Assembly: GCF_013817205.1 (NCBI RefSeq)
Contig: NZ_JACDDD010000002.1
Location: 1-64,000, forward strand
Direction of reading: 5' to 3'
Length of the DNA stretch: 64,000 bases
DNA from: Polaromonas sp.
Lineage (GTDB): Bacteria > Pseudomonadota > Gammaproteobacteria > Burkholderiales > Burkholderiaceae_C
Under the pieces are notes generated by a model that saw only the letters and a program-made list of their open reading frames with translations, did no database searches and was not told the DNA's origin. Position numbers and translations under genes: made by a program. Positions 6,274 to 61,946 of this stretch are shown piece after piece. The stretch's first letter is position 1. Each line of letters begins with the position of its first letter.

Positions 6274-6900
6274 ATGAGCTTGATTCCGAAAAAAGGCACC
6301 GTGTATGTCGTCGACGATGACGAAGGCGTTCGCGACTCGCTGCAGTGGCTGCTGGAGGGCAAGGACTACCGCGTACGTTGTTATGACTCCGCCGAAACCT
6401 TTCTGAGCCGCTACGACGCCCGTGAAGTCGCCTGCCTGATCGTGGATATCCGCATGGGCGGCATGACCGGCCTGGAACTGCAGGACCGCCTGGTCGAACG
6501 CAAGTCGCCACTGCCCATCGTGTTCATCACCGGTCACGGGGATGTGCCCATGGCAGTGGACACCATGAAAAAAGGCGCGATGGACTTCATTCAGAAGCCT
6601 TTCCAGGAAGAAGCCCTGGTCAGCCTGGTCGAACGCATGCTGGGCCAGGCCAAAGAGGCCTTCAGCGAACACCAGCAGTCGGCCAGCCGCGACGCCCTGC
6701 TGGCCAAGCTGACATCGCGCGAAGCCCAGGTGCTGGAACGCATCGTCGCCGGCCGGCTGAACAAGCAGATCGCCGACGACTTGGGCATCAGCATCAAGAC
6801 GGTCGAAGCGCACCGCGCCAACATCATGGAAAAACTCAATGCCAACACGGTGGCCGACCTGCTGAAAATCGCCTTGGGCTCGAACGCGCCCAAAGCCTGA
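6274..6900 (+). CDS. FixJ-family response regulator (REC + LuxR-type HTH)
   Basis: VYVVDDDEGVRDSLQWLL receiver; LTSREAQVLERIVAGRLNKQIADDLGISIKTVEAHRANIMEKL HTH; follows the kinase gene. Confidence 0.94.
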   Translation: MSLIPKKGTVYVVDDDEGVRDSLQWLLEGKDYRVRCYDSAETFLSRYDAREVACLIVDIRMGGMTGLELQDRLVERKSPLPIVFITGHGDVPMAVDTMKKGAMDFIQKPFQEEALVSLVERMLGQAKEAFSEHQQSASRDALLAKLTSREAQVLERIVAGRLNKQIADDLGISIKTVEAHRANIMEKLNANTVADLLKIALGSNAPKA

Positions 6901-6915
6901 GCCCGCCCTCCTGCT

Positions 6916-6976
6916 GCTATCGTTTTTATAGCTGCTTGCGCCCGTAGGTCAAAGACCGGCGGGCGTTTTTACTTGA
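6916..6976 (+). repeat. Dispersed palindromic element (family 1), intergenic
   Basis: GCTATCGTTTTTATAGCTGCTTGCGCCCGTAGGTCAAAGACCGGCGGGCGTTTTTACTTGA. Confidence 0.8.
6939..6970 (+). terminator. Rho-independent-like hairpin formed by a dispersed repeat copy
   Basis: CGCCCG-TA-GGTC-AAA-GACC-GG-CGGGCG followed by TTTTT, immediately after the response regulator gene. Confidence 0.65.
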
Positions 6977-6987
6977 AAATCAACCAC

Positions 6988-7854
6988 ATGACCGCACAAC
7001 TGATCGACGGCAATGCCTTGTCCAAACAACTGCGCGGCGATATCGCCAGACGGGCCGCCGCCCTGAGCGCGCGCGGCGCCACGCCGGGCCTCGCGGTGGT
7101 ACTGGTTGGCGAAAACCCGGCCAGCCAGGTCTATGTGCGCAACAAGGTCAAGGCCTGCCAGGACAGCGGCCTGCACTCGGTGCTGGAGCAATACCCCGCC
7201 ACCTTGAGCGAAGCCGACCTGCTGGCGCGGGTGGATGCCCTGAACCGCGACCCGGCCATCCACGGCATCCTGGTGCAGTTGCCGCTGCCTGCGCACATCG
7301 ACGCGCAAAAGGTGATCGAAGCCATTTCGCCGGCGAAAGACGTGGATGGCTTCCACGTCGCCAGCGCCGGCGCGCTGATGGTTGGCCAGCCCGGCTTCTG
7401 GCCGTGTACGCCCTATGGCTGCATGAAGATGCTTGAAAGCATTGGCTACGAGCTCAAGGGCAAACACGCAGTGGTCATCGGCCGCAGCAACATCGTCGGC
7501 AAACCCATGGCCCTGATGCTGCTGCAGAAAAATGCGACGGTCACCATTTGCCACAGCGGCACGCAGAACCTCAAGGCCCTGACGCTTCAGGCCGATGTCG
7601 TGGTGGCTGCCGTCGGCAAGCGCAATGTACTGACCGCCGACATGGTCAAGCCCGGCGCGGTGGTCATCGACGTGGGCATGAACCGCAATGACGAAGGAAA
7701 GCTCTGCGGAGACGTGGATTTTGGGGGGGTGAAGGACGTCGCGGGATGGATCACGCCGGTGCCGGGCGGCGTCGGCCCCATGACGATCACCATGCTGCTG
7801 GTCAACACCCTGGAAGCTGCTGAAATGGCCCCCACGGTCGCTCGCTCCGCGTAG
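6988..7854 (+). CDS. folD: Bifunctional methylenetetrahydrofolate dehydrogenase/cyclohydrolase
   Basis: [18 protein letters not shown]...[50 protein letters not shown] at 6988 preferred over the TTG at 6973. Confidence 0.96.
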
Positions 7855-8004
7855 CTCCCGTGGCCTTGCAGGCCGTGGCTAGCGAGACGCTTCGCCTCTG
7901 TCGCCTGTCCAAGTCTGCTCAAGCAGACTCGGAGCCGCAGGCTCCAGCCCCTCGGGGGCCGCTGCGCCTGCGGGCTGGCTAAGCCAGACCCGCGGCCCCT
8001 GCTT
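7829..8004 (+). repeat. GC-rich dispersed element (family 2), composite/longer copy overlapping folD stop
   Basis: CCCCCACGGTCGCTCGCTCCGCGTAGCTC...CCCCTCGGGGGCCGCTGCGCCTGCGGGCTGGCTAAGCCAGACCCGCGGCCCCTG. Confidence 0.8.
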
Positions 8005-8031
8005 GCAAAGAGTGCTGCGGTTCCTGGTTGC

Positions 8032-9405: not shown

Positions 9406-9843
9406 TCAGGAGGCGCGCGTATTACCTGACAGTCGCAACAAGACCATTCCGGCACACACCCACTGGAGCAGGTACATCGCGCTGCCAAGCCCGTGCCAGA
9501 AACGAAGGTCACCGCCGCTGGCGCGCGCAGTGACGATCTTCGACGCCACGCCGAACTCCACCAGCACCGCCAGCAGCAAGCCAGCCACTACATATTTCAT
9601 AGCAGCTTGCGCAGACGGGGAAAGGGCTGGAGCCTCTTTTTTATTCAAGAGCAGCAGCAGGAGCATGGCGCAGGCCACGCTGAGCCAGGTCTGGGCGGTG
9701 AACAGTTTCGCTGCCATGGCACCGGCCGCAGCCGGACCGGGCAGGTGAATGAACAACATCGGCACCACGATGAAACCCAGACCGGTCAGGCTGCCCCACC
9801 AGAGGGCAGCCAGCAGGATGCTGATGTGTGACCGGGTGTTCAA
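9406..9843 (-). CDS. DUF4149 domain-containing membrane protein
   Basis: 145 aa, four hydrophobic segments, ALWWGSLTGLGFIVVPMLF; sits next to greA as in related genomes. Confidence 0.8.
   Translation of the reverse strand: MNTRSHISILLAALWWGSLTGLGFIVVPMLFIHLPGPAAAGAMAAKLFTAQTWLSVACAMLLLLLLNKKEAPALSPSAQAAMKYVVAGLLLAVLVEFGVASKIVTARASGGDLRFWHGLGSAMYLLQWVCAGMVLLRLSGNTRAS
9587..9649 (+). repeat. Dispersed palindromic element (family 1) inside DUF4149 gene
   Basis: ACTACATATTTCATAGCAGCTTGCGCAGACGGGGAAAGGGCTGGAGCCTCTTTTTTATTCAAG. Confidence 0.75.
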
Positions 9844-16802: not shown

Positions 16803-16944
16803 TGGGTTCTCCGGATGGGTTACGGTTCGCCCAAGCGTGCACAAGAAACGTCTCGGTAAGACTCTTGCGGGCTGCTTTTGTGAGGGGGTTGGCTTGGTAT
16901 GCGCTGGGCGAAGCTGTGTTTTGAAAAGCCACTGATTATATAAC

Positions 16945-17033
16945 GCCCCCACGTTCGTTCGCTTCGCGTAACTCTCTGCCCCCCAAGGGGGCCGCTGCGC
17001 CTGTGGGCCGGCGGAGCCGGACCCGCGGCCCCA
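16945..17033 (+). repeat. GC-rich dispersed element (family 2) between trmH-family gene and carA
   Basis: CCCCCACGTTCGTTCGCTTCGCGTAACTCTCTGCCCCCCAAGGGGGCCGCTGCGCCTGTGGGCCGGCGGAGCCGGACCCGCGGCC. Confidence 0.85.
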
Positions 17034-17066
17034 ACTGGTAAAGAAAATATCCCGAGCTAATCGAGC

Positions 17067-17843
17067 CTAGCGAGCAGCAATCGAGCTGGCGTAGAGGCAG
17101 ATTGCAGCGGCAGCTGCCACATTGAGGGACTCCTCGCCGCCGGGCTGGGCGATGCGGACCTTGAGGGCAGCTCGCGCCATCAGGGCGTCGCCCACGCCCT
17201 GCCCTTCGTGACCCATGGCCCAGGCACAGGGCATGGGCAGGGCTTGCTGATTCAAAAAACTCCCGTGGTGGGAACTCGTGACCAGAACCGGTACCGTCAG
17301 CGCATCGAGTTCTTCGGGGGCCAGGCCTTCAATCAGCTGCAGCGCGAAATGCGCACCCATGCCGGCGCGCAGCACCTTGGGCGACCACAGCGCGGCCGTG
17401 CCCTTGAGCGCCAGCACCTGGCTGAAACCGAAGGCCGCTGCGCTGCGCAGCATGGAACCGACATTGCCAGCATCCTGCACCCGGTCCAGGATCAGCGAGG
17501 CGGCGCCCGGTGCCAGGGCGGCAGGCGCCGGCAGGTCCAGAATAAACCCCATGCGCGCGGGCGACTCAAGTCCGCTGATGTCGGCCATCAGCAGATCCGG
17601 GATCACTATGGTTTTGATAGCTGCCTGCGCCCATTCGGCGGGGGCTAGAGGCCAAAAAGACTCAGAAAAAACGGCCACTGCAGGCCTCAAGCCGCGATCC
17701 AGCGCCGCACGGCACAGGTGGTCACCTTCAAGCCAGATGCGTTGCTGCTTGCGGTAGGCCGTGTTGTCCTGCGACAGCCTGCGCAGGTCCTTGAGCAAGG
17801 TATTGTCGCGGGACGTGACAAGGACCGGCGCACCGGCGCTCAA
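17067..17843 (-). CDS. TrmH/SpoU-family RNA methyltransferase (start uncertain; TTG at 17843 proposed)
   Basis: [58 protein letters not shown]. Confidence 0.87.
17605..17666 (+). repeat. Dispersed palindromic element (family 1) inside trmH-family gene
   Basis: ACTATGGTTTTGATAGCTGCCTGCGCCCATTCGGCGGGGGCTAGAGGCCAAAAAGACTCAG. Confidence 0.75.
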
Positions 17844-18457
17844 CGCAGCACCTCTGCCACCGGGCTGAAGGAGCGGCGGTGCTGCGGGCAGGCACCGTGC
17901 TCGCGCAGGGCTGCCAGATGTTCCGCCGTACCGTAACCCTTGTGGCCGGCAAAACCGTATTGCGGGTACTCCAGATGGAACTGCTCGCACCAGCGGTCGC
18001 GGTGCACCTTGGCAAGAATGGAGGCCGCGGAAATCGCCGGAATGCGCGCATCCCCTTTGACAATGGCTTCAGCAAGGATACTCAGCGTCGGCAGGCGGTT
18101 GCCGTCCACCAGCACCTTCACAGGCTTCAGGCGCAGGCCCTCGACGGCGCGCCGCATCGCCAGCAGGGTGGCCTGCAGGATGTTGAGACTGTCGATTTCT
18201 TCGACCGTGGCCATGGCAATTGAGCAGCACAGCGCCTTGGCGCGGATCTCGTCATAGAGCCTTTCTCGGCGCAATGCGGTCAGAACCTTGGAGTCGGCCA
18301 GGCCCTTGATCGGCTGCAGATCGTCCAGGATCACGGCGGCAGCCACCACCGGGCCGGCCAGCGGGCCCCGGCCGGCCTCGTCCACGCCAGCCCACAGGCC
18401 TGGCGTGTCCCAGGAAAGCATGGCCTGTTCAGCCTGCAAGAATGTTCTGGATCGCAT
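17840..18457 (-). CDS. rnhB: Ribonuclease HII (alternative ATG at 18421)
   Basis: [38 protein letters not shown]; downstream of lpxB. Confidence 0.96.
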
Positions 18458-19628
18458 CGGTGGCTATTTTCGCGGTATCGCGCTGCAATTCCTCGTGCAG
18501 CTTTGTGAATCGTTGTTCAAGTACGCGGACTTTTTCGGGCGCGAAGATTTTCGCATCCACCCAGTGCAAAACGGCATCTGCCAAGGCTTGCGGCGTGGCA
18601 GCGTCCTGCAGCAGTTCAGGCACCACAAAATCGCGGCACAGAATGTTGGGCAGGCCGACCCAGGGCTGGAGCTTCTTGCGCCGCATGATCTGCCAGGACA
18701 GCCAGTTCATGTTGTAGGCAATCACCATGGGTCGCTTGTACAGCGCCGCTTCCAGCGTGGCGGTGCCGCTGGCAATCAGCGTGACATCACAGGCGGCCAG
18801 CGCAGCGTGCGACTGACCGGAAACGATCTGCACATGCGCCAGCATGCCAGCGGCCTGTGCCGCCTGTTCAATCTGTGTGCGCAGTGCGGGAATCGCGGGC
18901 ACTATGATTTTGATAGCTGGGTGCGCACGCCGGACAAGGGCTGCAGCCCTGAAAAAGCGCTCAGCCAGGTAAGCAATTTCGGAGTGGCGACTGCCCGGCA
19001 ACAGTGCCAGCACCAGATCGTCCGCCTGCAGCCCAAGCTGCTGCCGCGCTGCGGCCTGGTCAGCTTGCATGGGTATCACGCCGGCCAGCGGATGCCCCAC
19101 ATACGTGGCAGCGATGCCGTGCTGGGCCAGCAGCGCCGGCTCGAAAGGGAATATGCAGAGCACGTGGTCCACGCTGCGGCGGATCTTGTCGACCCGATCA
19201 GCCCGCCAGGCCCACACGGCAGGACTGACAAAATGCACCGTTGGAATGCCCGCCGCCTTCAGGTCGGCCTCCAGATCGAGGTTGAAATCCGGTGCATCCA
19301 CGCCGATGAACACGTCGGGCCGGTCAGCCAGCAGCTTCTGCCGGAGTTGAGTACGGATACCGACAATCTCCCGGTAATGCCGCAGGACTTCGACATAACC
19401 ACGCACCGCCAGCTTTTCGCTGGGCCACCAGGCCCCGAATCCGCGCCGCGTCATCTGCGCGCCACCAATGCCGCCAGCACGCAGGTCCGGCCAGCGGGCC
19501 TGAAAACCATCGAGCAGCAGCCCGGCCAGGAGGTCGCCGGAAGTTTCGCCGGCTACCAGGGCCAAGAATGGGGTGGTGGTGGGTCCAACCACTCCACGGA
19601 CCGGCAGAGAGCTGGGCGCTTGCGGCAT
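18429..19628 (-). CDS. lpxB: Lipid-A-disaccharide synthase
   Basis: [47 protein letters not shown]. Confidence 0.96.
18901..18962 (+). repeat. Dispersed palindromic element (family 1) inside lpxB
   Basis: ACTATGATTTTGATAGCTGGGTGCGCACGCCGGACAAGGGCTGCAGCCCTGAAAAAGCGC. Confidence 0.75.
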
Positions 19629-20429: not shown

Positions 20430-20483
20430 GAAAAAAAGAAATGTGTAACACCAGTAGCCGTGCGAGAAAGCGTCCCTTCAAGC

Positions 20484-20570
20484 CGGGGCCGCGGGACTGG
20501 CTCCGCCAGACCGCAGGCGCAGCGGCCCCCTCGGGGAGCAGCGCACTACGCGGAGCGAAAAGCGTGGGGG
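20484..20570 (-). repeat. GC-rich dispersed element (family 2) directly after fabZ stop
   Basis: Reverse strand TGA-CCCCCACGCTTTTCGCTCCGCGTAGTGCGCTGCTCCCCGAGGGGGCCGCTGCGCCTGCGGTCTGGCGGAGCCAGTCCCGCGGCCCC. Confidence 0.85.
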
Positions 20571-21011
20571 TCATGTGATCGTGCGCATGGTGCACATCAG
20601 TTCAGCCTCACAGGCCATGTTGTCGCCCACGCGGGCCACGCCCTTGAACTTGAACACCCCGGCCTTGAGCCGCTCCAGTGTCACCTCCATGACCAACTGG
20701 TCGCCCGGCTCCACCGGCCGTTTGAAACGTGCGCCGTCAATGCCGGCAAAATAATACACAGTCTTGTCGTCGGGGGTGATGCCCTGCATGTCAAACGCCA
20801 GCAAGGCTGCGGCCTGCGCCATGGCCTCAAGCATCAGCACGCCCGGCATCACTGGCCGGTGCGGAAAATGCCCGGTGAAAAACGGCTCGTTCATGGTGAC
20901 GTTTTTCAGGGCCTTGATGCGCTTGCCTTTCTCGAGTTCGAGCACCCGATCCACCAGCAGAAAGGGGTAGCGGTGTGGCAACTGCTTGAGGATTTGGTGG
21001 ATGTCCATCAT
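20571..21011 (-). CDS. fabZ: 3-hydroxyacyl-ACP dehydratase FabZ
   Basis: [50 protein letters not shown]. Confidence 0.97.
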
Positions 21012-27514: not shown

Positions 27515-27582
27515 CGGGCCGCCCCAAGGCGCGAAGGCCCCCTTGGGGGGCAGCGTGTTACACGAAGTGAAAAGCGTGGGGG
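27515..27582 (-). repeat. GC-rich dispersed element (family 2, short subtype) directly after cdsA stop
   Basis: Reverse strand TGA-CCCCCACGCTTTTCACTTCGTGTAACACGCTGCCCCCCAAGGGGGCCTTCGCGCCTTGGGGCGGCCCGGC. Confidence 0.85.
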
Positions 27583-28419
27583 TCATGCCGTCACAAGCAT
27601 CAGGGCCAGCGGCAACACCGGCACCAAGGCATCAACGCGATCCAGAACACCACCATGGCCGGGCAACAGCCCGCTGGAATCCTTGGCGCCGGCACTGCGC
27701 TTGACCAACGATTCGACCAGGTCGCCGACCACGCTGAACGCAGCCAGGAAAATCATGGCCAGCAGGGTCAGCGGCAAGCCGTATTGAGCAGCGAGGCGCG
27801 CATAAAAACTGTTCCCGGTGCTGTCCAGCGACACCCAGGCAATACACAGCACCAGCACGCCGACCATGCCGCCCCAAACGCCCTCCCAGCTCTTGCCCGG
27901 GCTGATCGCCGGTGCCAGCTTGCCCTTGCTGAAACGCCCACCCAGCCCCTTGCCCGCAAAGTAGGCGCCGATATCGGCGACCCAGACCAGCAACAGCAGC
28001 GACAGCAGGAATTCAATGCCGATGAAACGTGCCTGCGCAACCGCCAGCCAGGCCAGCCAGAGTGCCAGAACGCCCACCACCAGGCGCACAACGCGCGGAA
28101 TGCGCGGCCAGCCAGCCACGCCACCGCGCAGCAGCCAAGCGCCTGCCAGTACCCAAGCCGCCCCTGCCAGACGCCACAGCAGCGGCAAAAGCTGCTCCAG
28201 CATGCCGAGGTACCAGGACATCACACACAAGACCACACAGGCCAAGCCGGTCCCCAACGAGGCGACAGTCCCGTAACCGTTCAGGCGCGCCCACTCCCAC
28301 GCGGCAGCGGAAATCAGCACCACGGCGAGCACTGCGAACGGAATCGCCGTGGTGTAAAAAAGTGCCGGCAGCAAGATGGCCAGCAGCACCAAGGCGGTAA
28401 TCACGCGTTGTTTGAGCAT
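27583..28419 (-). CDS. cdsA: Phosphatidate cytidylyltransferase
   Basis: Polytopic; SVVGDLVESLVKRSAGAKDSSGLLPGHGGVLDRVDAL signature. Confidence 0.96.
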   Translation of the reverse strand: MLKQRVITALVLLAILLPALFYTTAIPFAVLAVVLISAAAWEWARLNGYGTVASLGTGLACVVLCVMSWYLGMLEQLLPLLWRLAGAAWVLAGAWLLRGGVAGWPRIPRVVRLVVGVLALWLAWLAVAQARFIGIEFLLSLLLLVWVADIGAYFAGKGLGGRFSKGKLAPAISPGKSWEGVWGGMVGVLVLCIAWVSLDSTGNSFYARLAAQYGLPLTLLAMIFLAAFSVVGDLVESLVKRSAGAKDSSGLLPGHGGVLDRVDALVPVLPLALMLVTA

Positions 28420-29165: not shown

Positions 29166-29221
29166 ATCGGCAGTCAAAAATAGCGCGAAGTACGCGTGCT
29201 TGGGACGGGCTGGCTTGTCAA

Positions 29222-29311
29222 GCAGGGGCCGCGGGTCCGGCTTCGCCGGCCCGCAGGCGCAGCCGCCCCCCAGGGGGGCAGAGAGCTACGCGAAGCGAGC
29301 GAACGTGGGGG
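29222..29311 (-). repeat. GC-rich dispersed element (family 2) after frr stop
   Basis: Reverse strand CCCCCACGTTCGCTCGCTTCGCGTAGCTCTCTGCCCCCCTGGGGGGCGGCTGCGCCTGCGGGCCGGCGAAGCCGGACCCGCGGCCCCTGCT. Confidence 0.88.
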
Positions 29312-29316
29312 CAAAG

Positions 29317-29877
29317 TCAGACCGCCATGATGTCTTGTTCCTTGGCGGCGACCAGCTTGTCGACATCCGCAATGAAACGGTCGGTGGACTTTTGCACGTC
29401 GTCATGCGCGCGGCGCTCATCGTCTTCCGACGCCAGCTTTTCCTTGACCAGTTTCTTCACGCCGTCATTGGCATCACGGCGCAGGTTGCGGATTGCGACC
29501 TTGGCGTGTTCGCCCTCGCCGCGCACCACCTTGGTCAGTTCCTTGCGGCGCTCTTCGGTCATGGCCGGCATGGGCACGCGGATCAGGTCGCCCTGGGTAG
29601 CGGGATTCAGGCCGAGGTCGGAATCGCGAATGGCTTTTTCGATTTTGGCACCCATGCCTTTTTCCCATGGCGACACGCTGATGGTGCGTGCATCGAGCAA
29701 CGAGACATTGGCCACCTGGCTGATTGGCACCATGGAACCGTAGTAGTCCACCTGCACGGTATCGAGCAGGCCGGGGTTGGCGCGGCCGGTGCGGATTTTG
29801 GTCAGCGCCTGCTTGAAGGACTCCAGCGACTGCTGCATTTTCTGTTCGGTGCTGCTCTTGATATCAACAATGCTCAT
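29317..29877 (-). CDS. frr: Ribosome recycling factor
   Basis: [58 protein letters not shown]. Confidence 0.97.
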
Positions 29878-32497: not shown

Positions 32498-32730
32498 AGA
32501 GATACTCCAAAGGTTGTGTCTAAAATCAGCGCTTATCACCCGGAGAGCTCTTGTAATAGAGTCGTGCGGGCAACACCTTGAATGGCTGATTTGCGATTTG
32601 CTGCGCGACGGCGGGATTGCCTTTTGCACAGCCTGCTGAGTATAACATCCCTGCCATCTGTGCCCGGCGGCGTCAATCATCCACCGCTCTGCGCCACTGA
32701 TCATTGCATCGCGTATCCTTCCCAAACACA

Positions 32731-32785
32731 CTGTAAAAATGATAGCTGCCTGCATCCGTCCAGCAAGGGCCGGATGCCAATTTGA
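32731..32785 (+). repeat. Dispersed palindromic element (family 1), intergenic upstream of dadA
   Basis: CTGTAAAAATGATAGCTGCCTGCATCCGTCCAGCAAGGGCCGGATGCCAATTTGA. Confidence 0.75.
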
Positions 32786-32849
32786 CCCATAAACACATGC
32801 GTTTTCCCAAAATTGTCCTGATTCACCCCGGTTCATACCGGGCCAAGCC

Positions 32850-34112
32850 ATGAAGGTCGCCGTCATAGGCGCCGGCATCATCGGCATCACCACCGCCTGG
32901 GAACTGGCCCGTGACGGCCACGAGGTCACGGTTTTCGAGCGCCGCGGCGCAGCCGCCGAAGAAGGCAGTTTTGCCAACGCTGGCGTGGTCGCACCCGGCT
33001 ACGTGACGCCCTGGGCCAGCCCGGGCATGCCGCGCAAGGTGCTGGGGCATCTGTTCAGCCGCCATGCGCCTGTCACCCTGGGCCTGCCGCTGTCCGGCAG
33101 CGAGCTGGCCTGGATGTGGAAATGGTGGCGCGCCTGCCGGCTTGAAACCTACCTGTCCAACCGCGCCCGGCTGCAGCGCCTGGCGTTCTACAGCCGGGAA
33201 CGGCTGCACCAGATCACGGCCGACCGGCAGCTCGAATACGACCGCAGTCCGGGCTATCTGGTGCTGCTGCGCGCCGAGGGCGATGCCCGCATGGTGGAGC
33301 TCGGCCTGCAGGTGTTGCGCGACGCCGGGGTGGCTTTCCGCCAGGTCGGTAGCGACGAAGCCCGCAAGATCGAGCCGGCGCTGAATCCGGACACGGCTTT
33401 TCTGGGCGCGATTCATCTGCCGGATGACGAGGTCGCCAACTGCCGGCAGTTCGCTCTGCTGCTCAAAACCGAAGCCCAGCGCCTCGGCGTGAATTTTGAG
33501 TTCAACAAGGCCGTAGCCCATATGGAACGGTCGCATCCAGCTACTTTTTTGATAGCAGGCGAAAGTGCGCCGCGCAGCTTCGACGCGGTGGTGCTGTGTG
33601 CCGGCCTGGCGTCGGCGAGGCTGCTCGGGCCGCTTGGCCTGAAGATTCCGCTGGCGGCGGTCTATGGCTATTCGATCAGCGCCTCAATTCGCGAGCCCCT
33701 CAACGCACCACGCAGCGCACTGATGGACGAACGCTACAAAGTCGCCATTTCGCGATTGGGCAACCGCGTGCGCGTGGCCGGCAGCGCCGAGCTTGGCGGC
33801 AACCCGGACAAAAAGCGGGCGGCCTCGGTGCAAACGCTGTACAAGGTGCTGCAGGACTGGTTTCCGGGCGCTGCACAAACCTCCAACACGGGCGCCAGCG
33901 TGCAAGAGTGGAAAGGCGCCCGTCCCATGCTGCCGGACGGCCCGCCCATCATCGGCGCCAGCGGCCTGCCCGGCCTGTGGCTCAACCTGGGCCACGGCTC
34001 CAGCGGCTGGGCCCTGAGTTGTGGCAGCGCGCGAGCTGTGGCCGACCTGGTAGCCGGCCACGCGCCAGCCATTGACATGGACGGGCTTGATGTGGGTCGG
34101 CTGACGCGCTGA
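32850..34112 (+). CDS. dadA: D-amino acid dehydrogenase small subunit / FAD-dependent oxidoreductase
   Basis: [59 protein letters not shown]. Confidence 0.92.
33498..33556 (-). repeat. Dispersed palindromic element (family 1) inside dadA
   Basis: Reverse strand GCTATCAAAAAAGTAGCTGGATGCGACCGTTCCATATGGGCTACGGCCTTGTTGAACTC. Confidence 0.65.
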
Positions 34113-34130: not shown

Positions 34131-35693
34131 ATGCACAAGCTCTCACACGCCCAGACGCTTCCCCTGCATGGTGTGGCGGCCACGCGCCGGCTGGAGCAGC
34201 AAGCGGCGGCGGCCCTGCCACCGCACACGCTGATGCAGCGCGCCGGGTTGGCGACGGCGCGCCTGGCGCGGGCACTGGCGCCGCATGCCCAGCAGATCTG
34301 GATCGCCTGCGGGCCGGGCAACAACGGCGGCGACGGCCTCGAAGCCGCCTGCCATCTGCACCAGTGGGGCAAAACAGTCACGGTGACCTGGCTGGGTGAA
34401 GCGGGCGAACGCGAGGGCAAGCTTCCCGCCGACGCGATGGCCGCGCTGCAGCGGGCCCGCTCCGCCGGTGTCCGCTTTGCCGACGCCCCGCCGCCCGGCG
34501 TCGACTTCGCCATCGACGCGCTGCTGGGCATAGGCGCCAGACCAGGAAGTGACGCCTCAGACGCCGGCGCCGCCCTGATCGCGCAATGGCTGCAATGGTT
34601 GCGCAACACCAGTCAGCCGGTGCTGGCACTGGACATTCCGAGCGGACTTGATGCCGATACGGGAACTGATTTTGCTCCTGAATCGATAGCTACTTGCGCC
34701 CGTCCAGCAAGGGCTGGAGCCCGTTTTTGTTTGAGTTTTTTGACCCTGAAGCCGGGTCTGTTCACCGCATCCGGAAGAGACCTCGCCGGGCAAGTCTGGT
34801 GGGACGACCTGGGCGTCACGGTTCCCGCAGAGAACACACCCGACGCCTGGCTGGCAGGGCAGGACTGCTGCAGTGCCGGCGGGCGCGCCGAGGTCCGCCA
34901 CAGCAGCCACAAGGGCACGTTCGGCGACGTGGCCGTCATTGGCGGCGAGTCGAAGGGCAGCACCCACATGGCCGGCGCCGCGCTGCTGGCCGGCCGTGCG
35001 GCCCTGCATGCCGGTGCCGGGCGGGTGTTTGTTGCCTTGCTGGGCAGCCCGAGCCTGACCCTGGACCCGCGGCAGCCCGAACTGATGTTTCGCAACCCCG
35101 GGGCTCTGGACTTGGCCCACCAGACAATCGTTTGCGGTTGTGGCGGCGGCAATGCCGTCGCCGCAGTACTGCCAAAAATTTTGTCGAAGGCGCCAGCCCT
35201 GGTGCTCGACGCCGATGGGCTCAACGCCGTGGCCGGTGACACGTCCCTGCAAGCCCTGCTGCGCGCCCGGGCTGCGAGAGGCTGGCGCACCATTCTGAGT
35301 CCGCATCCGCTGGAGGCCGCGCGCCTGCTCGGCAGCTGCACGACCGACGTGCAGTCGAACCGCCCGGAAGCGGCAAAGCGGCTCGCCACGCAATTTCAGT
35401 GTGTGGTGGTACTCAAGGGTTCCGGCACGGTGATTGCCGCGCCAGCCGCCATTCCGGTGATCAACCCTACCGGCAATGCGCGCTTGGCCACGGCCGGCAC
35501 CGGCGATGTGTTGGCAGGCATGTTGGGCGCGGCACTGGCCGCCGGGCTGCCGGCTTTTGAAGCTGCCTGCGGCGCGGTATTCCAGCATGGCCAGTTCGCG
35601 GACAACTGGCCGCCGGGGCAGGCACTGACCGCCTCGGAGTTAGCCCAGAACCATCAGGCCGATCTGCAGCAAGAGCAGCAGCACCAGCGCTGA
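34131..35693 (+). CDS. nnr: Bifunctional NAD(P)H-hydrate epimerase / ADP-dependent dehydratase
   Basis: YjeF N-domain (GPGNNGGDGLEAACHL) plus carbohydrate-kinase-like domain (NPTGNARLATAGTGDVLAGMLGAAL). Confidence 0.95.
   Translation: MHKLSHAQTLPLHGVAATRRLEQQAAAALPPHTLMQRAGLATARLARALAPHAQQIWIACGPGNNGGDGLEAACHLHQWGKTVTVTWLGEAGEREGKLPADAMAALQRARSAGVRFADAPPPGVDFAIDALLGIGARPGSDASDAGAALIAQWLQWLRNTSQPVLALDIPSGLDADTGTDFAPESIATCARPARAGARFCLSFLTLKPGLFTASGRDLAGQVWWDDLGVTVPAENTPDAWLAGQDCCSAGGRAEVRHSSHKGTFGDVAVIGGESKGSTHMAGAALLAGRAALHAGAGRVFVALLGSPSLTLDPRQPELMFRNPGALDLAHQTIVCGCGGGNAVAAVLPKILSKAPALVLDADGLNAVAGDTSLQALLRARAARGWRTILSPHPLEAARLLGSCTTDVQSNRPEAAKRLATQFQCVVVLKGSGTVIAAPAAIPVINPTGNARLATAGTGDVLAGMLGAALAAGLPAFEAACGAVFQHGQFADNWPPGQALTASELAQNHQADLQQEQQHQR
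34674..34735 (+). repeat. Dispersed palindromic element (family 1) inside nnr
   Basis: GCTCCTGAATCGATAGCTACTTGCGCCCGTCCAGCAAGGGCTGGAGCCCGTTTTTGTTTGAG. Confidence 0.85.
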
Positions 35694-41187: not shown

Positions 41188-41227
41188 AAGGACTGTTCGA
41201 CCTCGCCATTGTAGCAGGAGAATATGG

Positions 41228-41300
41228 CCCCCACGCTCGTGCACTGCGTGTAACTCGCTGCCCCCCGAGGGGGCGCGTTTTCCTTGGGGCGGCCCTGCGG
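41228..41300 (+). repeat. GC-rich dispersed element (family 2, short subtype) between relA and tRNA-Val
   Basis: CCCCCACGCTCGTGCACTGCGTGTAACTCGCTGCCCCCCGAGGGGGCGCGTTTTCCTTGGGGCGGCCCTGCGG. Confidence 0.85.
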
Positions 41301-49846: not shown

Positions 49847-50377
49847 TTATGAAGTCAATTGTCCCAGCGCGTCGATGCGCGCATCGACTTCACCGGTAAA
49901 ACGCTCAATAAACATAAGGCCTCTCACCTGCCGGGCGGCCGCTGGAAAGTCTTTGGCGACGTCCAGCAGATGCTCTAATTTTGATAGCTGCTCGCGCTTG
50001 CTGGCCGTGGCCTCGGCAGCAATTTCATCGATATCGTCGATCCCTCCGGCGTCATCCAGCGCTTCGCGCCACTGCATCTGCTGCATCAGGAAGTCGGCCG
50101 GCATGGCGGTGTTGCTCTCCGCCTCGATGGGTGCGCCCTGCATTTCGCACAGGTACATGGCCCGCTTGAGCGGGCTTTTCAGGCGCTGATAGGCCTCATT
50201 GATGCGCACCGACCACTGCATGGCCAGCCGCTGCGCAGCAGCGCCCTGCGCCGCAAACTTGTCGGGATGCGCCTCGCGTTGCAGCTCTTTCCAGCGGGCA
50301 TCAAGCACAGCACTGTCCTGCGCGAACTGCGCGGGCAGATCGAAAAGTTCGAAATCGTTGGATTGGAGGCTTGGCAC
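49847..50377 (-). CDS. hscB: Fe-S protein assembly co-chaperone HscB
   Basis: NDFELFDLPAQFAQDSAVLDARWKELQREAHPDKFA (J-domain HPD). Confidence 0.95.
   Translation of the reverse strand: MPSLQSNDFELFDLPAQFAQDSAVLDARWKELQREAHPDKFAAQGAAAQRLAMQWSVRINEAYQRLKSPLKRAMYLCEMQGAPIEAESNTAMPADFLMQQMQWREALDDAGGIDDIDEIAAEATASKREQLSKLEHLLDVAKDFPAAARQVRGLMFIERFTGEVDARIDALGQLTS
49972..50010 (+). repeat. Partial/degenerate family 1 element inside hscB
   Basis: GCTCTAATTTTGATAGCTGCTCGCGCTTGCTGGCCGTGG. Confidence 0.5.
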
Positions 50378-56922: not shown

Positions 56923-57489
56923 ATGGACGCTCTGGCGCAGCGATTTGTGCAGGACACCCTGCGCAACCACTGCAATGCCGTCCTGCTGGAGCGCCTGCCG
57001 GAACTTGGCTTACCCGATGCGTGGCTGGTCGGGGGCTGCCTGTTCCAGACAGTGTGGAACCTGCTGGAAGGCCAGCCGCCCGGCGCCCGCATCCGCGACT
57101 ACGACATCTTTTACTTCGACGGCACAGACCTGTCGGAAGCCACCGAAACTGCGGTCAATCTGCGCGCACGGCAGGTCTTTGGCGGTCTTGGGGTGCAGCT
57201 CGAACTGAAGAACCAGGCCCGTGTGCACACCTGGTACCCGGCGTATTTCGGCCGGCCTTGCCCGCCTCTGGGCAACGCCTGCGAGGGCGTCAACCGCTTC
57301 CTGGTGGGCAGCACCAGCGTCGGTTTGCGCCAGTCCGGTGGCACTGTGCAAGTGCATGCGCCGCACGGACTGGAGGACCTGTACCGCGGCCTCCTGCGCG
57401 CCAACCCGCGGGTCGATCACGGCCCGCTTTACGGCAGCAAAGCGCGTGACTACCAGGCGCGCTGGCCCTGGCTTCAGCTTGCGGATTGA
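56923..57489 (+). CDS. Nucleotidyltransferase family protein (DUF925-like)
   Basis: WLVGGCLFQTVWNLLEGQPPGARIRDYDIFYFDGTDLS; DYDIFYFD catalytic-like motif. Confidence 0.78.
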   Translation: MDALAQRFVQDTLRNHCNAVLLERLPELGLPDAWLVGGCLFQTVWNLLEGQPPGARIRDYDIFYFDGTDLSEATETAVNLRARQVFGGLGVQLELKNQARVHTWYPAYFGRPCPPLGNACEGVNRFLVGSTSVGLRQSGGTVQVHAPHGLEDLYRGLLRANPRVDHGPLYGSKARDYQARWPWLQLAD

Positions 57490-57547
57490 GTTCAAAAAAG
57501 CCTCCAGCCCTTCACTGGCGAGCGCAAGCAGCTCCTGAATTGATAGC
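57488..57547 (-). repeat. Dispersed palindromic element (family 1) immediately after the nucleotidyltransferase stop codon
   Basis: Reverse strand GCTATCAATTCAGGAGCTGCTTGCGCTCGCCAGTGAAGGGCTGGAGGCTTTTTTGAACTC. Confidence 0.85.
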
Positions 57548-57562
57548 GAACGCTGCTAAAAT

Positions 57563-61286: not shown

Positions 61287-61946
61287 GTGGACTCGCTCGC
61301 CGATCGCATCAACGCCGCGCTGCCACAAACCCAGTGCACGCGCTGCGGCTACCCTGACTGCGCCGCCTACGCGCAGGCCCTCGCCGAAGGCGAGGCCGGG
61401 ATCAACCAGTGCCCGCCGGGCGGCGCCGAAGGCATCCAGCGCCTGGCCGCCATCACCGGCCGGCCGGCGCTGCCACTGAATACCGACAATGGCACCGAAG
61501 GTCCGCGCCAGCTTGCCGTGATTGACGAAAACTGGTGCATCGGCTGCACCCTGTGCCTGGACGCCTGCCCGACCGACGCCATCATGGGCAGCAACAAACT
61601 CATGCACACCGTGGTCGAGCCTTATTGCACGGGCTGCGAGCTGTGCATTCCGGTCTGTCCCGTGGATTGCATCAGCCTCGAGAACGTGACTATCGTGCGT
61701 ACCGGCTGGGCCGCCTGGTCAGAAGCAGACGCTACCCTGGCCCGCACGCGCTATGAATTTCATAGCTTAAGGCGCACGCGGGACAAGGGCGAACACCAGA
61801 AAATGCTTGAAGAAAAAGCCGAAGCTGCACTGGCCGACCTGCCTGGGCACTCACGGCACACCGACCCGGCCGTTTTGGACCAGAAACGCGCGGTCATTGA
61901 AGCAGCACTGGCGCGCTCACGCGCCCGACGCGGCGCCAGCTCCTGA
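61287..61946 (+). CDS. RnfB/RsxB-like electron transport protein (two 4Fe-4S motifs), stand-alone; GTG start
   Basis: QTQCTRCGYPDCAAYAQALAEGEAGINQCPPGG; CIGCTLCLDACPTDAI; CTGCELCIPVCPVDCI. Confidence 0.88.
   Translation: MDSLADRINAALPQTQCTRCGYPDCAAYAQALAEGEAGINQCPPGGAEGIQRLAAITGRPALPLNTDNGTEGPRQLAVIDENWCIGCTLCLDACPTDAIMGSNKLMHTVVEPYCTGCELCIPVCPVDCISLENVTIVRTGWAAWSEADATLARTRYEFHSLRRTRDKGEHQKMLEEKAEAALADLPGHSRHTDPAVLDQKRAVIEAALARSRARRGASS
61750..61808 (+). repeat. Dispersed palindromic element (family 1) inside rnfB-like gene
   Basis: GCTATGAATTTCATAGCTTAAGGCGCACGCGGGACAAGGGCGAACACCAGAAAATGCTTGA. Confidence 0.6.

Follow-up and report, generated by a model that had tools for sequence, protein, structure and literature searches.

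An abundant motif of ca. 66 bp, translated within nnr of a Polaromonas sp., appears to be preserved as DNA and may be an uptake-type signal

The nnr gene of a Polaromonas sp. encodes a bifunctional NAD(P)H-hydrate epimerase/dehydratase whose two domains, YjeF_N (PF03853, 117 bits) and Carb_kinase (PF01256, 150 bits), lie in one ORF; the NCBIfam model yjeF_nterm scored 79, under its cut-off of 88.6. A solved homologue of Nnr is TM0922. The gene lies in a stretch of 64,000 nucleotides that was analyzed as a whole (hereafter the window) and it harbors a copy of a dispersed motif:

34131–35693, + strand: nnr, intact ORF, 520 aa
34671–34733, + strand: motif copy in nnr, profile score 56 bits, in frame (phase 0), read as FAPESIATCARPARAGARFCLS
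34685–34699, + strand: motif core of the nnr copy, GATAGCTACTTGCGC, with 1 mismatch to GATAGCTGCTTGCGC
34703–34718, + strand: inverted repeat TCCAGCAAGGGCTGGA, private to the nnr copy

A profile of the repeat, R1, matched the nnr copy with E = 1.6e-16 when run against the window. Since the 38 copies of this genome from which R1 was built include that of nnr and others in the window, independent support was taken from a count of the core: GATAGCTGCTTGCGC (15 bases, up to 2 mismatches) had 227 matches in the genome, versus 8 for a reversed-pattern control. An earlier note on this DNA had described a near-consensus repeat translated in frame within an nnr ORF intact on both sides, and both points hold, the ORF retaining its two domains. 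The note had also called this the best-preserved copy, which it is not, as it ranks second by score in the window. A stem that the note had assigned to the repeat, TCCAGCAAGGGCTGGA, is indeed present at nnr but does not characterize the family: it has a single further occurrence genome-wide and belongs to no conserved fold, and folding of the nnr copy was no better than that of shuffled sequence.

Ten copies in the window pass E = 1e-4, and three weaker ones were found with filters off. Besides that of nnr, the following were recorded:

287–352, + strand: copy encoding part of an Ala/Pro-rich linker that joins two lipoyl-like repeats in a protein of acyltransferase type, ORF 3–632 (−)
6914–6980, + strand: copy between genes 6274–6900 and 6973–7854
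9585–9647, + strand: copy in ORF 9406–9843 (−), antisense, in frame
17603–17668, + strand: copy in a 23S/tRNA methyltransferase-like gene, 17067–17843 (−), antisense, in frame, 57.8 bits, the highest score in the window
18900–18950, + strand: copy in lpxB, 18429–19592 (−), antisense, in frame, without indel relative to solved LpxB chains
32729–32794, + strand: intergenic copy upstream of dadA, shared in position with several congeners and a further genus
33493–33558, − strand: weaker copy within dadA, next to nnr, at the same place in congeners with up to 31 bits
49969–50010, + strand: partial copy in ORF 49847–50377 (−)
57486–57550, − strand: copy at the 3′ end of gene 56923–57489
61748–61811, + strand: copy in an rnfB/rsxB-like gene, 61287–61946 (+)

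The dadA copy was located at 863–928 in L002 and 843–907 in L009, was weak in another genus (L038), and showed no obvious indel. A second dispersed repeat of ca. 100 nt, G+C-rich, with GGCCCCC..GGGGG and CGTGGGGGTC elements, was also observed in both orientations and is possibly the betaproteobacterial repeat element (BRE) of Hot et al. (2011):

7825–8011, 16942–17044, 20478–20580, 27521–27590, 29218–29320 and 41224–41274: second, G+C-rich repeat

The place of the motif in the Nnr protein was assessed by structure prediction. In an AlphaFold model based on 28 sequences, residues 183–193 had a pLDDT below 50 and formed a coil between strands 164–167 and 198–203, and the motif peptide is accordingly predicted to occupy a disordered loop right after the conserved GLDADTG segment. 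The position within the YjeF domain past a conserved segment agrees with the earlier note, and the loop location, which the note had proposed to check on a structure, is supported by the model.

Throughout the genome, where at least 150 profile matches were found, the motif has the consensus TTTGCTATTGATTTGATAGCTGCTTGCGCCCGTCGGACAAGGGCTGGAGGCCGATTTGACTCAAAAAC, which is non-palindromic, with fixed spacing and without terminal inverted repeats. Conserved blocks (GCTAT, ATTT, ATAGCTG, GCGC, GGGCTG and ATTTG) are separated by nearly random columns, information amounting to roughly 65 bits is spread across ca. 66 columns, and the motif is ca. 50% G+C and mostly solitary. A total of 149 copies aligned over 66 nt with only 1 internal gap. 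Identities between pairs of copies matched those of column-shuffled data, with a maximum of 0.848 where shuffling gave maxima of 0.827 on average (range 0.797–0.889), indicating that there are no recent duplicates or clear subfamilies. Copies thus resemble independent draws from one position matrix, dependence being found mainly among neighboring columns, although columns would also be expected to be independent in an element family that is old, saturated and constrained. Columns 54–56, a T-tract near the 3′ end, were bimodal, mostly TTT with an AAA minority and strong dependence between neighboring columns, and columns 29–30 were mostly CC, AG or TT. Coding and non-coding copies share a single consensus (r = 0.94 for column information). 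Neither a conserved fold nor covariation was detected across the aligned copies, for which RNAalifold yielded only 2 pairs, and no match was found in Rfam. Searches of open-licence papers for a 14-base core and two variants in both orientations returned nothing, and the genome paper of Polaromonas JS666, cited for MITEs, may already describe the motif.

With genes predicted by a heuristic, uncurated codon-usage caller made for this analysis, 42 of the 149 copies were wholly intragenic. A single frame was used by all 11 sense copies, and likewise one by 23 of 31 antisense copies. This preference is accounted for by stops in the remaining frames, and its interpretation as a sign of peptide selection was rejected. 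Elsewhere, where it lies in a different gene or frame, the same motif DNA yields unrelated peptides. How far protein length is altered across the motif, of ca. 22 aa, was measured against solved homologues, the PDB comparators being distant: the net change was 0 aa in LpxB, 0 or −1 aa in a protein resembling L-threonate dehydrogenase (60-bit copy), +4 in TruB, +4 to +6 in TilS, +8 in Cca, +10 in Nnr and +12 in an acyl-CoA ligase. In LpxB and the neighboring methyltransferase, protein length around the motif was constant across 12 genera, and the dehydrogenase orthologue of the congener L308 has equal length and no motif, the latter being found in other congeners and in other genera. Judging from these comparisons, simple insertion appears doubtful, since coding copies add 0 to +12 aa and not ca. 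+22.

Conservation at silent sites was analyzed in four genes, by counting how often silent third positions bearing A or T in the genome under study were kept by orthologues inside the motif, with the expectation taken from the remainder of each gene in these orthologues. Such positions were kept in 143 of 209 cases for nnr, against 68.9 expected (2.1-fold), 158 of 244 for lpxB, against 84.6 (1.9-fold), 88 of 115 for the dehydrogenase, against 25.1 (3.5-fold), and 174 of 259 for the methyltransferase, against 82.3 (2.1-fold). Dominance of close relatives was considered as a source of bias and discarded, as the effect persisted when stratified per orthologue; the unstratified version agreed. 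As far as sequence comparison can tell, the motif is preserved as DNA, silent positions included, in these four coding copies.

The age of the nnr site was addressed using 59 loci from the genus and family, plus the nearer ones among 80 named loci, most of the relatives being draft genomes. The stretch from GLDADTG to LTLKPG is longer in most Comamonadaceae than in the outgroups Cupriavidus, Silvimonas and Thauera, where it is short (ca. 10–12 aa less). The motif or a recognizable remnant, identified by the pattern GCT AT. ... ATA GCT ... and also by profile matches at that position, is found, with the frame unchanged, in the majority of congeners and in some dozen further genera. Even the genera of G115 and G111, with two or three profile matches genome-wide, have motif-like remnants in nnr. 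Given this shared place and frame across genera and the remnants in motif-poor ones, the suggestion of the earlier note that the insert is probably recent does not stand; these alignments indicate that the site is old. The loop has been lost with the ORF intact in congeners L013, L022 and L026, and sister pairs L013/L031 and L026/L030 differ through loss of the motif. In an Nnr tree computed with the loop excluded, at least 15 state changes were required, a number that would fit one gain with many losses as well as repeated gain, and so does not separate the two. Loops of L049 and L091 are ca. 20 aa longer, near full-length additions, that of L049 keeping the native VQAHHTLSL; addition of sequence therefore truly occurred too.

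Non-intragenic copies are associated with gene 3′ ends. Of the 129 gene 3′ ends that flank them, 88 lie within 30 nt (median 13 nt), and the copies are commoner in convergent gaps and rarer in divergent ones. No strand preference relative to transcription was found (33 same, 30 opposite), and a replication-strand polarity was rejected upon inspection of a fuller list of matches. In G065 and G133, from two other genera, three inverted core pairs (L250, L251 and L252) form terminator-like palindromes of ca. 90 nt with flanking A/T runs and a variable center, and only one inverted pair within ca. 110 bp (L199) was found among the copies of the genome under study. Around strong matches, 193 copies were counted in 1.02 Mb, a sample picked for matches that overstates density. 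Genera vary widely in motif abundance, and so do species of one genus, from 2 matches in G057 to at least 150 in G160; core variants differ by genus. A correlation with ComEC proved uninformative, the protein being nearly universal (49 of 50 genomes, regardless of motif count). G103, with 23 motif matches, lacks ComEC, and in G064, with 118, ComEC reads as three pieces. The genome has one Y1 transposase (Y1_Tnp) gene, whose locus lacks the motif, and mobilization by a RAYT was rejected on this ground.

The main rival to a DNA signal is an old repeat similar to a MITE or a Rickettsia palindromic element (RPE), inserted in frame into an ancestral nnr, trimmed by small deletions and inherited vertically, the other coding copies being insertions with compensating deletions. 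Taken alone, the nnr loop would fit it: site, orientation and frame are common to many genera, the outgroup loop is short, L049 and L091 bear their long additions, with native sequence retained in the former, and both RPEs and REPs are known to insert into genes (PMC10969869, PMC3733652). We nevertheless consider this origin less likely on balance, because the LpxB and dehydrogenase copies entail no change in length, the 149 copies show one gap and neither clear subfamilies nor recent pairs, terminal inverted repeats are missing from the consensus, the lone Y1 transposase has no motif nearby, and silent sites are conserved. Selection on the encoded peptide as a functional insert in Nnr is the least credible of the alternatives; an I-A pair and Arg-Ala-Gly remnants do recur among orthologues, but the same DNA gives unrelated peptides elsewhere, and the loop is a low-confidence coil dispensed with in three congeners whose ORF is intact.

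Two further readings place the function in the nucleic acid. A binding site for a chromosome-organizing or transcription-related protein, kept by ordinary host selection and not by a transfer drive, would account for DNA-level conservation, fixed spacing, strand neutrality, enrichment near gene ends and depletion from divergent (promoter) gaps. It is improbable, as presence varies strongly within one genus, sites are lost singly in place (L308) and the binding protein is hypothetical; variable presence and single losses suit a dispensable signal better than a host-selected site. An element acting in transcripts, as a terminator, processing site or small RNA, would be in keeping with the proximity to gene 3′ ends and the palindromic dimers with A/T tracts of other genera, but it is very improbable in view of the lack of conserved structure, covariation or Rfam match, of an nnr copy that folds no better than its shuffles, and of the equal numbers of both orientations relative to transcription.

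The explanation that we favor, at roughly even confidence, is that this genome-wide motif of ca. 66 bp is held at the DNA level and is most likely an uptake- or recombination-type signal like DUS/USS. It draws on the abundance, fixed spacing, age and DNA-level conservation of the motif, on copies formed in place and on the lack of subfamilies. According to this signal reading, a cell system would recognize the motif as double-stranded DNA, and we infer that a protein is responsible. Sites would arise and persist where tolerated, either near gene 3′ ends or within genes in the few stop-free frames, at loops, linkers and alanine-rich helix-strand segments; in nnr, the tolerant place would be the loop after GLDADTG. 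Formation would proceed by in-place substitution aided by small indels, and spread by biased exchange, as for uptake sequences in natural transformation. Against the signal reading, added length is involved (+4 to +12 aa in TruB, TilS, Cca, the ligase and Nnr, and +20 in L049), the motif is far longer than known uptake sequences, ComEC gives no correlation and the receptor is putative. With so atypical a length and an uninformative ComEC, uptake as the function is something we infer by analogy, and taken alone it is a tentative assignment, somewhat short of even probability. A similar reserve, on the doubtful side of even, applies to the broader proposal that many Comamonadaceae carry an undescribed signal of ca. 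66 bp, for DNA uptake or other DNA recognition, that rewrites coding sequence in place.

If true, a DNA signal would be shaping conserved proteins, for example LpxB and the loop of Nnr, across genera, thereby steering protein evolution, and apparent insertions in such proteins may be native sequence rewritten. The motif could also account for the species-specific transformation reported in Acidovorax (PMC4212676).

Among known systems, RPEs resemble the motif in that a repeat is read in frame in unrelated genes and tolerated in loops. They differ in being palindromic insertions of ca. 150 bp, whereas neither a palindrome nor terminal inverted repeats were found here, some copies add no length, and, compared with homologues, the whole element stands out as a clean addition only in the nnr of L049 (ca. 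+20 aa). REPs (GTAG/CGTC, RAYT) are likewise short, dispersed and often at gene 3′ ends, with some intragenic copies and some dimers; the present motif is longer, lacks a GTAG/CGTC-tagged hairpin or conserved stem, and had no link to a REP-associated tyrosine transposase, the Y1 transposase gene being devoid of it. BRE, reported from Polaromonas, Rhodoferax, Delftia and Acidovorax, is also a dispersed repeat with some intragenic copies; it is set apart by its description as ca. 90 bp, 69% G+C (Bordetella copies), often tandem and with up to 29 copies per genome (Hot et al. 2011; PMC3110155), in contrast to the mostly solitary motif of ca. 50% G+C with hundreds of copies.

The best-characterized uptake motifs are short and known from two families: DNA uptake sequences (DUS) in Neisseriaceae and uptake signal sequences (USS) in Pasteurellaceae. 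We know of no uptake sequence that approaches 66 bp or roughly 65 bits. DUS/USS occur as hundreds of dispersed copies, many of them intragenic in tolerated frames, few of which are free of stops, with terminator-like inverted pairs and genus dialects (PMC3630211). Likewise, a single motif is over-represented here on both strands, in coding and non-coding DNA (227 versus 8 core matches; 42/149 copies intragenic), it uses few stop-free frames and has dialects by genus, and copies appear to evolve in place under DNA-level conservation, as judged from four genes only. The differences lie in size, the core there having 9–12 bp and the motif here ca. 66 bp, internally spaced at fixed distances, and in a lower density, about one copy per 5 kb in stretches chosen for matches. 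A long motif kept as DNA inside the core genes of an environmental family with wide distribution would be a case very unlike DUS/USS.
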